From Deltaproteobacteria bacterium (GTDB taxonomy: Bacteria; UBA10199; JACPAL01): DNA of 64,000 nucleotides. This document shows, one piece after another, positions 1,967 to 12,944 of this stretch. The notes beneath the pieces are model-generated. The model searched no databases. It worked only from the letters and a program-made list of their open reading frames with translations, and was not told where the DNA came from. Where the stretch lies: the NCBI GenBank assembly GCA_016180845.1, contig JACPAK010000005.1:1-64000 (forward strand), in the 5' to 3' direction. The translations under genes were made by a program, and so were the position numbers. The stretch's first letter is position 1, and the number at the start of each line of letters is the position of its first letter.

Positions 1967-1967
1967 G

Positions 1968-2089
1968 GGGTTGACGAGAAAAGTCCATCTACTTCGTCGC
2001 CTATCCTCGGCACTCCTTGCGACGTACATTACAGTACGCCTCAGTCGGCCTCGTCAGGCTCCTTGTATCTGGACTTTTCTCGTCAACCC
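1968..2089. repeat. Palindromic extragenic repeat with 20-bp arms
   Basis: Perfect inverted arms at 1968-1987 and 2070-2089 (core GGTTGACGAGAAAAGTCCA) enclose 82 bp. The centre carries GACGTAC-ATTACA-GTACGC. The same kind of core (ACGTAC-CACAAA-GTACGC) and a similar flank (TTCGTCGCC versus TTCGTTGCCC) occur in the repeat at 10573-10732, so both seem to belong to one repeat family. It directly abuts the 5' end of tRNA-Lys and contains no credible gene. The rest of the gap (2090-2135) shows nothing recognisable. Confidence 0.8.
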
Positions 2090-2135
2090 TCCCTTTAGTT
2101 TGAGGTCGACTAGCATATCCAACCAATTCGTCAAC

Positions 2136-9604: not shown

Positions 9605-9755
9605 AAAGGATCCTGTGAAAAGGAACTTGCTATTTTCTCTGGATGCCTGTACGGTGCGTCACAAGTTGTACTCAGGAATTCGAAGTTTTCGGTAATCCTA
9701 CCTTAAATCAGATCGCAATCCCAGAGCAGTACAGCAAGAAATAAGGAGGACATTT

Positions 9756-9965
9756 ATGTCCAAAAAACAAGGAACCGTCAAATGGTTCAGTGATAGCAAG
9801 GGGTATGGTTTTATTACCCCTGAGGATGGTGGCAAGGATCTCTTCGTCCATCACTCCAACATCCAAGGTGAGGGTTTCAAGACACTCGCCGAGGGTCAGA
9901 AGGTCGCTTTCGACGTCGGCGTTGGGCCGAAGGGTGAACACGCGACTGAAGTCAGCGCCGCTTAA
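9756..9965 (+). CDS. Cold shock protein, CspA family
   Basis: A 69-aa single cold-shock domain that binds single-stranded nucleic acid and acts as an RNA chaperone. The RNP1-like KGYGFITPE and RNP2-like DLFVHHSNI are intact, and the start [11 protein letters not shown] is typical. A strong AAGGAGG at 9743-9749 sits six bases before ATG 9756. The 150-bp leader after the previous gene (9605-9755) holds no gene. A long untranslated leader is usual for cold-shock genes, but I see no certain structure in it. A factor-independent terminator follows. Confidence 0.97.
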
Positions 9966-9988
9966 GTTTAAAAGAAGCGCATGATACA

Positions 9989-10028
9989 AAAAATGGCGCC
10001 CCGCCACTGGTGGGACGCCATTTTTATT
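9989..10028 (+). terminator. Terminator of cold shock gene
   Basis: An imperfect hairpin pairs AAAAATGGCGCCCC with GGGACGCCATTTTT (one mismatch) and ends in the T-rich run TTTTTATTTT. It lies 25 bp after the csp stop codon and ahead of the Shine-Dalgarno of the cupin gene. Confidence 0.85.
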
Positions 10029-10070
10029 TTCTGGCTTCTTGTTCCCAGTTTTCCTAATGAACGAGGTGAG

Positions 10071-10577
10071 ATGAACCGCTCAAGCCTCACCGCTGCTAAA
10101 ATCATCCAGTTGTTCGATCTCAAACCCCACCCGGAAGGAGGCCACTATCGCGAGACCTACAGGGCTGTTGAGAAAATTTCGAAATCGGCCCTCCCTTCTC
10201 GATTCGTCGGAGATTGCGCTTTTTCAACTGCGATCTATTATCTCCTGGCCGAGGGAGAAAAATCAAAACTCCATCGTCTCAAGACCGACGAGCTCTTTCA
10301 TTTCTATCTGGGAGATCCACTCATTGTTGTTCAGATTTTTCCGGATCGTGTTGAGAAGGTGACGCTGGGTCAGGATATCCTGACAGACGAGAAGGTCCAA
10401 CATCTGATTCCCGCCGGCTGTTGGTTCGGTGGTTATCCCGCGAAGGGAAGCCGGTTTAGTTTTATCGGATGTACCGTCGCCCCCGGCTTTGATTTTGCCG
10501 ATTTTGAAACGGCCAACACCAAAAGGCTTTTGAATGACTTCCCCCACGCCAAAGAAGAAATCCTCAAGATGCGCTAG
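10071..10577 (+). CDS. Cupin_5 (DUF985) family protein
   Basis: A 168-aa protein starting at ATG 10071 behind GAGGTGAG. The family start signature is present (LFDLKPHPEGGHYRETYR), followed by the beta-barrel with STAIYYLL, HRLKTDELFHFYLGDP and VAPGFDFADFE. The His and Glu residues of HRLKTDE and the downstream barrel strands could bind a metal. The function of DUF985 proteins is not settled; they are single-domain cupins. A longer in-frame reading upstream runs through the csp terminator and is not real. The stop codon TAG lies inside the terminal repeat of the palindromic element that follows. Confidence 0.9.
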   Translation: MNRSSLTAAKIIQLFDLKPHPEGGHYRETYRAVEKISKSALPSRFVGDCAFSTAIYYLLAEGEKSKLHRLKTDELFHFYLGDPLIVVQIFPDRVEKVTLGQDILTDEKVQHLIPAGCWFGGYPAKGSRFSFIGCTVAPGFDFADFETANTKRLLNDFPHAKEEILKMR

Positions 10578-10732
10578 TGTAGTGTCCCATAAATTCCTTT
10601 ACGCTTCGTTGCCCACTCCCTCGCGATCCTCACGTACCACAAAGTACGCTCTGGTCGCTCGCTCGCGGGCGCCTCGCTTAAAGAAATTTCTGGAACACTA
10701 CTGTAAAGAAGTGTTAGGGACAGTACACTAGC
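10573..10732. repeat. Palindromic extragenic repeat whose ends carry stop codons
   Basis: Outer arms at 10573-10588 and 10717-10732 match at 15 of 16 positions (GCTAGTGTAGTGTCCC against the reverse complement of GGGACAGTACACTAGC). A weaker match extends them inward to about 26 bp. An inner arm (10690-10702 region, TTTCTGGAACACTACT) can also pair with the left end. The core ACGTACCACAAAGTACGC resembles that of the repeat at 1968-2089. The TAG in the left arm is the cupin stop, and the CTA in the right arm is the stop of the convergent lipoprotein gene. It has no coding content. Confidence 0.78.
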
Positions 10733-12944
10733 TTCCAGTCAGCTCCCCTTTAATCACAGCAGGATCAGCAGTAACATCCGGCATCGCACCAACATCTGGA
10801 TCAGTATAATCTTGAGCAGGTGTCGTGAGTGTCTCAAATGTCAAATCAGAACATTCGCTGGAATCATCCTCAGACATCCTCTGTTCCATTTCGAGGGCCC
10901 GAACATAATAAGGGGTTCCGTTTTCACCGGTTACCTCTGTTCCATCTGCAATGGTCAGTTGAGGATACCAGCGATCGGTCCCTTCGACCTGTGTCCATGG
11001 AATCCCCTGCAATTCGCCGAAGCCGGCATATTCCAGGCCATACAGGACCCCATCCGTATGTTTGTAATTGAGTCGCAGAGGAGGATCAAAAGCGACCGCC
11101 TTGTTGTCTTTATCGAGAAGTCCCATGAACCGGTTCCAATCGTTCGGACCTGTCTCCCAGGTGTAGTAGACAGACTGTCCCCAGACCTCCCAGGTATTCC
11201 TCAGATCTGATGTCGATGTGAGCATCGGTCCAGATTGAATCCCCCACTGATTGGGTCCGGAGGCGGTAACCCCCTCTTTCACTCGAACCACTTCCCCTCC
11301 ATAAGTCAGCGTCATCGTCGATGGATCAAAAGAGTATTGATACGCTTCGGTCACACTCATGGAATCATCAAAATAAGGTCTCGCTCCTTGCCAATTGATT
11401 TGTGCCTCGGTGATCTCGGAACGTAGACAATCCTGATAGCAGAAGAGTTTTACAGAACCATTCGTAAAGTCACTCTCTTGACCGGTCATGATCTGCGTCT
11501 TGTCAAAGGTAATCTTCGTGGAGTTGCTCAAGGCGACGGCCGGATATTCAAAAAAGACCCCTCCCAAACCATCGCGCCAGAAATTTAACCATTCACCCAC
11601 ATTCGCCGTGAGATTCTGCGCAGTCACCTCCTGCCAGCTACAAGGGGCGTTCGGCTGACAGACCTGCACGGCATCTTTGACGAGACTGGTCCCGTTCCAG
11701 GTCACACGATAGGTTTGCCCCGCCGTGTTATCCCAATAATTCATCGGGGCCCCCTTGATATCTCCAAGTGTAATCTCCGTCTTCGTATGCTTGACCAGTT
11801 TTCCAGGACCAACCCTGACGGTGTACGTTTCCCCTGAAGATTCGTCATTATTCGAACGCTCGACGGCGAGCCCATTCACAAGCTCTACCTCCTCCGGAAA
11901 CCAGATCCCCCAGTAACCGGCCCAACCATAGAAATCGTTGTACTTGATCCCAAAACCGGGGTTCGTCACCGCCACGCGACTTCCATCGGCATTGTAAACA
12001 CCGTAACGAAAGACGTAGTTGTCAAAATTCTGCCTATCGAGGCATTTCCTTTCTGCCAAAACTGAATCGCTCGAAAAATAGTGGGCCTCATCAAAAGCAA
12101 CCTGAAAGGCCCCTTGCTCCGTATGCCCGCCAAAACTAAACTCAAACGAGGTCAAGGCATGACCTGCCGTCCCATCAACAGTTGTCACGACATGGGCATT
12201 CTCACTCACAGGGAACTGATCCCCACCTTTCATCGAAAATTGGAATTCGATCAGGTCGTCATCCCGATCGACCGTCTCCAGATAACCCTGTGCGATCGGC
12301 GGATCGGGAAATAACGGATCAACCATTTCGAAATCCATGTGGAATGATCCATAAGGCCGTGTATCACTCTTTCCCTCGGTAATAGTCATTTTTGCCTGAA
12401 TAATCATCGCCGGCTCAAATTCAGTCGCCTCTTGTTGGATCCAGGCCTTCACAATCTGTGGTGAATCATTGTCAACTCGACTGGAATTCAGAACCCACGT
12501 CTCGAAACTTTCAGCGGCACTGGCGGATTGATCGTTTTGGTCAGAGCTATGATCAGTATCCTTTGAACACCCCTCAATATCAATCAGGGCGATATAATCC
12601 CCCTTGTTCACCATGTCTGCATATCGGGTCTGATCAAAGGAGCAGAGGATTTCGTTGATGATGCTTAGAGATTCCATCGATTCATCGAAGACCCAGACAT
12701 CGAGAGGATCTGTATAATAAGGAGTCAGCTGATCTGCGGTGATCCCTCTTTTGATCAGTGAAGCAAGGACTGAAAGTGAACCGCTGGTTGTCCCTTCTTG
12801 CGCCTCAACAAGAGACATCTGGCTCGCAATTTCCAACCCCTCCACAGCCGTGCCGGTGGCAGCCCTCGTGGCAGCGGTATTCCCGCAAGCGGACAAGAGA
12901 AAACCGCTCAGAATAACAATCAACAAACCGTTTCTTTTTTTCAT
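10728..12944 (-). CDS. Large lipoprotein of unknown function
   Basis: A 738-aa exported lipoprotein. The signal peptide MKKRNGLLIVILSGFLLSAC ends at Cys20 (lipobox LSAC). The mature part is acidic and rich in Asp, Ser, Thr and aromatic residues, with many short WYF-containing segments (for example DFYGWAGYWGIWFPEEV and VWGQSVYYTWETG). This is compatible with an all-beta surface protein. I recognise no domain. It lies 20 bp downstream of a second lipoprotein gene on the same strand and probably forms an operon with it. Its stop codon is inside the palindromic repeat at 10573-10732. Confidence 0.85.
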   Translation of the reverse strand: MKKRNGLLIVILSGFLLSACGNTAATRAATGTAVEGLEIASQMSLVEAQEGTTSGSLSVLASLIKRGITADQLTPYYTDPLDVWVFDESMESLSIINEILCSFDQTRYADMVNKGDYIALIDIEGCSKDTDHSSDQNDQSASAAESFETWVLNSSRVDNDSPQIVKAWIQQEATEFEPAMIIQAKMTITEGKSDTRPYGSFHMDFEMVDPLFPDPPIAQGYLETVDRDDDLIEFQFSMKGGDQFPVSENAHVVTTVDGTAGHALTSFEFSFGGHTEQGAFQVAFDEAHYFSSDSVLAERKCLDRQNFDNYVFRYGVYNADGSRVAVTNPGFGIKYNDFYGWAGYWGIWFPEEVELVNGLAVERSNNDESSGETYTVRVGPGKLVKHTKTEITLGDIKGAPMNYWDNTAGQTYRVTWNGTSLVKDAVQVCQPNAPCSWQEVTAQNLTANVGEWLNFWRDGLGGVFFEYPAVALSNSTKITFDKTQIMTGQESDFTNGSVKLFCYQDCLRSEITEAQINWQGARPYFDDSMSVTEAYQYSFDPSTMTLTYGGEVVRVKEGVTASGPNQWGIQSGPMLTSTSDLRNTWEVWGQSVYYTWETGPNDWNRFMGLLDKDNKAVAFDPPLRLNYKHTDGVLYGLEYAGFGELQGIPWTQVEGTDRWYPQLTIADGTEVTGENGTPYYVRALEMEQRMSEDDSSECSDLTFETLTTPAQDYTDPDVGAMPDVTADPAVIKGELTGS

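Follow-up and report, generated by a model that had tools for sequence, protein, structure and literature searches.

A palindromic repeat between two convergent genes is probably a mini-transposon inserted into their CTAG stop

Between two convergent genes in a 64,000-nucleotide stretch of deltaproteobacterial DNA (contig JACPAK010000005.1; hereafter the window) lies a palindrome, at 10573-10732, that carries the stop codons of both neighbors. An earlier note, made from the sequence alone, had pointed out this arrangement, and both stops proved to be real. We are confident, though short of certain, that the palindrome is a miniature inverted-repeat transposable element (MITE) which, moved by a transposase acting in trans, entered a YTAR-like target with a 4-bp duplication, and that the target was the stop CTAG of the two genes. 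The earlier note had called the repeat mobile, which its terminal inverted repeats and flanking direct repeats bear out. It had also held that the repeat supplies the stops; both TAG codons belong instead to the target site that was duplicated, and homologues in which no copy stands at the stop end at or near the same residues. The features are as follows.

9981..10577, plus strand: cupin gene, Cupin_5 (PF06172), 198 aa, with stop TAG at 10575-10577
10574..10577, no strand: left CTAG copy of the target-site duplication; its TAG at 10575-10577 is the cupin stop codon
10578..10727, plus strand: probable non-autonomous MITE with type-a ends, 150 bp, with both ends, a flanking direct repeat and near full-length relatives
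10578..10601, plus strand: left terminal repeat TGTAGTGTCCCATAAATTCCTTTA, which doubles as the 5' hairpin arm and agrees with the right end at 18 of 24 positions
10603..10677, plus strand: core palindrome GTAC...GTAC (CTTCGTTG...GCGCCTCG), common to the dispersed family; extent approximate, from recurrent matches to query positions 30-104
10678..10701, plus strand: 3' hairpin arm, repeating the left end in inverted orientation; the family model matches 10579-10701 with E 3.3e-15
10702..10727, plus strand: right terminal repeat (tail), ending in GGGACAGTACA, placed by comparison of ends with relatives
10728..10731, no strand: right CTAG copy of the target-site duplication; on the minus strand its TAG at 10728-10730 is the stop of the 738-aa gene
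10728..12944, minus strand: 738-aa gene with stop TAG at 10728-10730, a lipoprotein by the earlier note's call only; no Pfam match at E 0.001
1967..2090, plus strand: the window's other copy of the core family, with different arms and no stop overlap, abutting a minus-strand tRNA gene (1894-1966) at its 5' end

The inverted 16-bp ends of the palindrome lie where they had been reported, GCTAGTGTAGTGTCCC at 10573-10588 and its inversion at 10717-10732, with one mismatch. Near full-length relatives found by DNA search of 46 genomes of the class (81, 82 and 88% identity in genome G025, 85% in G001) fix the boundaries of the element itself at 10578-10727, where it begins with TGTAGTGTCCC and ends with GGGACAGTACA; a more distant relative in G006 has 74% identity. 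The CTAG direct repeat at 10574-10577 and 10728-10731 thus falls outside the 150-bp element. We found no protein-coding gene within it: the sole listed open reading frame of 60 aa or more across it (10534-10731, plus strand, 65 aa) starts within the cupin gene and is taken as a chance frame. The core has 17 copies in the same genome, and elements with type-a ends occur in G001, G006 and G025; in its own genome the focal element is the only type-a element that DNA and pattern searches found. With matching inverted ends, a flanking duplication, small size, no gene and multiple copies, the palindrome probably belongs to a common class of bacterial mini-transposons; what is unusual is how neatly it landed.

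The core belongs to a dispersed family. Its motif ACGTAC-N6-GTACGC occurs exactly twice in the window, in the focal element and at 2022-2039, as the earlier note had said of this palindrome and the repeat at 1968-2089, and is absent from 100 shuffles even when one mismatch is tolerated. A covariance model built on 16 own-genome copies recovered 17 copies in the 2.13-Mb genome, one of them a 64-bp remnant. Counting that genome, members were found in 32 of 46 sampled genomes of the phylum at E 1e-5 and in 30 of 40 genomes at E 0.001. We fetched and examined a subset of 118 copies, taking the best-scoring of a few genomes first; they share a common core and differ in their outer arms, which are complementary within each copy. 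With genes called by our own codon-usage script rather than a standard gene finder, 24 copies lie between convergent genes, 74 between co-directional and 9 between divergent ones, 7 were called in-gene and 4 have no class. The convergent junction, at which the earlier note expected such a repeat to be tolerated, is one setting among several.

The flanks of type-a elements argue for a target-site duplication. Among the fetched loci (L numbers), 14 candidate elements have both type-a ends, counting one end pairing per element, picked by eye from output in which true ends were also joined to inner arms or to chance hits; L288 and L307 are represented by whichever pairing gave the closer flank agreement, and L270, whose right end is missing, was left out. 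Eight of the 14, including the focal element, are flanked by an exact 4-bp direct repeat, which is CTAG for the focal copy, L257, L258, L269, L282 and L297, TTAG for L305 and CTAT for L298. Four more match at three of four bases (L256, L271, L288 and L307), and two do not match (L277 and L284). CTAG reads the same on both strands, and a CTAG flank could therefore have belonged to an inverted end; TTAG and CTAT recur as direct rather than inverted repeats, so the flank is a duplicated target and not merely part of the terminal inverted repeat. The share of CTAG is biased, since the DNA-search query held both CTAGs and the end pattern held the left TAG, a selection from which the agreement of right and left flanks in L298 and L305 is free. 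A preference for CTAG as target makes matching flanks less striking: supposing that any two targets agree with a chance of 1/4, eight matches in 14 have P 0.01.

A control on all 118 copies points the same way. Beside matching ends there were 23 perfect 4-bp repeats, compared with a mean of 6.4 (maximum 13) in 20 flank shuffles, and 11 perfect 5-bp repeats, compared with 2.35 (maximum 6). The excess was weaker at 3 bp (35 versus a mean of 21.5, maximum 30), and counts were small at 6 bp (2 versus 0.45, maximum 3) and 7 bp (2 versus 0.05, maximum 1). Seven of the 11 5-base cases are GGGACTGTTGAA-ended copies in G001 (TTAAG, GTCAT, AAAAT, TTAAT, CATAA, ATTAT and ATCAG), and one comes from G006 (ATCAA). 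Most of the 118 copies, including nearly all others in the focal genome, lack a clear duplication, perhaps owing to age or to other types of end, and such copies lend the duplication no support. Sequence searches of the sampled genomes found no empty site for the focal element or for a related one.

If the palindrome had brought the stops with it, its ends carrying TAG and its insertion trimming or extending the neighboring gene, the gene ends should owe their position to the repeat. Both stops do adjoin the element, and the arm of some copies contains the neighboring stop (at -14 to -11 in 7 of the 76 5' flanks that face a stop). We nevertheless consider this account improbable: the flanking repeats of relatives are direct rather than inverted, abutting copies show TAA, TAG and TGA alike, and homologous proteins end at or near the same residue with no copy at the stop. 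Comparison of C-termini with such homologues, which the earlier note had proposed as a check, gave this last result. Fourteen cupin homologues from other genomes, taken from 18 other matches, end within a few residues of the window protein's end. Among nine homologues of the 738-aa protein, examined out of 11 other matches, the one in G030 ends in KGELAGS* compared with KGELTGS* in the window, that in G009 ends level (QGVVIGN*), five stop about two residues earlier, and those at L309 and L315 differ. The family model places no copy at any of these 23 homologue stops (14 cupin and nine 738-aa), so the stops are older than the insertion and neither gene appears to have been cut or extended by the element.

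When the sequences flanking the MITE are joined (...ATGCGCTAGCTTCC...), both reading frames stop in a single CTAG, and before the insertion the cupin and 738-aa genes probably overlapped by these four bases. Overlaps of CTAA, TTAA, CTAG or TTAG between convergent genes form a class already described (PMC2174442). A putative transposase supplied in trans would recognize the TGTAGTGTCCC terminal inverted repeats, favor YTAR-like targets, of which CTAG is most often seen, and duplicate 4 bp. Here the target would have been the common last four bases of the two genes, in which TAG can be read on each strand. Its duplication would leave one CTAG on each side; because CTAG was copied on insertion, each gene would retain its own stop and its full length, and the event would presumably have been harmless to both proteins, whatever effect the element may have on transcription.

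Homologues of the 738-aa gene have family copies upstream at L311 (1181-1269, G001) and L317 (1198-1258, G009), and the gene thus meets the palindrome family at both ends, in different genomes. In the window, 9645-10023 gives a sub-threshold match to the cspA thermoregulator (43.5 bits, gathering threshold 78) around a cold-shock protein gene at 9756-9965.

Across the family, many copies begin at stop codons. With the 7 in-gene copies of 118 excluded from distance counts, 39 of the 76 flanks of fetched copies in which a gene points at the hairpin's 5' edge have its stop within -4 to +3 nt of that edge, and in 7 more the stop is 11-14 nt inside the arm. The 3' edge is as close to a stop in 5 of 48 stop-facing flanks, a figure that is too low, since the right side of many copies ends in a tail of about 25 nt. 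The counts at start-facing edges are 0 of 33 on the 5' side and 1 of 60 on the 3' side. We considered a true orientation preference at stops (39/76 versus 5/48) and dropped it, as the tail could place stops that reflect the same effect 20-32 nt from the right edge. In the focal genome, a stop lies within 4 nt of a hairpin edge in 6 of 17 copies and inside the arm in one more.

For type-a elements the stop ends exactly at the element edge in 7 of 13 stop-facing flanks, corresponding to 6 of 13 elements, a count in which the duplication is imperfect or not visible in L256, L270 and L271. Copies without stop overlap, which the earlier note had said would count against its reading, do occur: 7 of 13 type-a elements, and the copy at 1967-2090, are not at a stop. 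As a yardstick we used non-coding YTAR sites, stop overlaps included, in the window and in stretches fetched from three relatives; 116 of 595 are stop codons, where the stretches were chosen around copies and the copies' own sites are part of the count. Against this, 6 of 13 is mildly high (P 0.027), and most of the stop effect can be put down to the choice of target together with tolerance. The type-a elements L270 and L271 (in G001 and G006) sit at the stops of genes with very similar C-termini (YRK..YGIK), presumably regulator genes, either as a shared old insertion or through repeated targeting.

The earlier note had further suggested a bidirectional terminator, and selection of the palindrome for that role at convergent gene ends deserves some weight, although we think it unlikely. 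The strand folds far better than its shuffles (DNA z -4.6; RNA z -6.1 and -6.7), the hairpin is strong on both strands, the setting here is convergent and many copies lie at gene 3' ends. However, a simple consensus scan of 10400-10900 returned no terminator-like site and no GC-rich stem with a U-tract, and copies also occupy co-directional and divergent sites. The arms themselves speak against such selection. On the model strand of the 118 copies, outer-arm mismatches comprise 70 A.C and 12 G.T cells (38-68 versus 10-12 when near-identical arms are counted once); these A.C cells would be G.U pairs on the opposite strand, as between the arms at 10578-10601 and 10678-10701. The model strand is the one that an abutting upstream gene would transcribe, and the mismatches there do not preserve pairing, an excess that terminator selection for that gene would not yield. 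It suggests instead that pairing is kept on one strand or that mutation is strand-biased. A terminator role and a MITE origin are not exclusive.

Movement as a REP/REPIN-type element by a RAYT (Y1) transposase seems to us very improbable, less likely than either repeat-borne stops or a terminator. It would fit a palindrome with many copies and conserved internal mismatches, and Y1_Tnp genes are present in 35 of 40 searched genomes. Yet the focal genome has no Y1_Tnp and hence no linked transposase of this type, a family match (a partial one) lies within about 1.5 kb at only 1 of 30 fetched Y1 loci of relatives, and target duplications are present, which Y1 transposition is not expected to produce. 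An attC-like site, which we considered because copies follow stop codons, was set aside because its core-site pattern does not appear to fit the ends.

No transposase bearing the ends of the MITE was found. Among 17 pattern matches in 46 genomes (at most one mismatch, so that divergent ends are missed), no ends paired at 1-3 kb as an autonomous partner would have them, nor did any in 69 viral-contig stretches; plasmid records gave no match at E 0.01, and PF01609 and PF01797 have no match in the focal genome. IS5 is an insertion sequence with YTAR targets, and an IS5-type DDE transposase, the kind sought with PF01609, could act from elsewhere or could have been lost.

The core occurs between several kinds of ends: 4-bp YTAR duplications accompany TGTAGTGTCCC or CAGnnTGTTGACAAAG ends, and 5-bp duplications accompany GGGACTGTTGAAAAATG ends. 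Many copies also carry the local left end a second time, in inverted orientation. Mean agreement between end types is 66% for the core and 53% for the 5' arm in G001, 60 and 42% in G006, 57 and 49% in G009, and 64 and 47% in G000, with end types assigned by simple patterns within one genome and no unrelated-sequence baseline for the percentages. Tentatively, these patterns raise the possibility that the GTAC-centered core travels between different transposon end types across one phylum as a passenger module of several transposases, its helix pairing perhaps maintained on one strand by selection at the RNA level; descent from a common ancestor whose ends diverged could also account for them. 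Type-a ends also enclose different interiors, at L305 (1504-1673), L297 (1504-1637), L298 (928-1073) and L307 (1504-1664), in G007 and G018, and part of the L305 interior is itself dispersed in these two genomes.

An abstract-level literature search, which cannot prove absence, met nothing recognizable as this palindrome family, and in the literature searched, with the same limit, we did not meet the explanation of a stop within the duplication. Precedents in BOX, QMITE and REP elements show that the palindrome is of a kind already known. Bacterial MITEs are reviewed in PMC10969869 and PMC2229807. The Chunjie MITE of Geobacter uraniireducens (PMC10969869) is likewise short (178-235 bp), without a gene, bounded by terminal inverted repeats and direct repeats, and present in many copies, mostly intergenic; the focal family, likened to it by description and not by sequence, differs in setting one core palindrome between several kinds of ends. 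In Streptococcus pneumoniae, BOX provides the stop codon at the very 3' end of a gene in 36 cases, with no strong evidence that these genes were truncated, and is over-represented between convergent genes (PMC3049150); the host is different, and we assign the focal stop to the target duplication. QMITE1 and QMITE2 of Coxiella burnetii overlap gene 3' ends, once with the stop directly preceding the element, whereas QMITE2 has direct repeats of 7-11 nt and variable sequence (PMC5896051). IS711 shares the target consensus YTAR but appears to duplicate TA alone, compared with 4 bp for the focal element, for which no transposase was found (PMC2266754). GTAG and CGTC REPs are likewise palindromes found close to the 3' ends of genes, most of those in convergent settings lying within 20 bp in the species shown, but are 20-40 bp long with other end motifs (PMC3733652).

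If the core truly moves between end types, the family would be a case of modular mini-transposons. Beyond that possibility, the MITE reading offers a simple and testable reason for small repeats that begin exactly at stop codons. Since a transposase that targets and duplicates YTAR would regenerate TAA or TAG on both strands, insertion at a stop, even one shared by convergent genes, would cost neither protein. Such repeats should accordingly not be taken for terminators or for new sources of gene ends.
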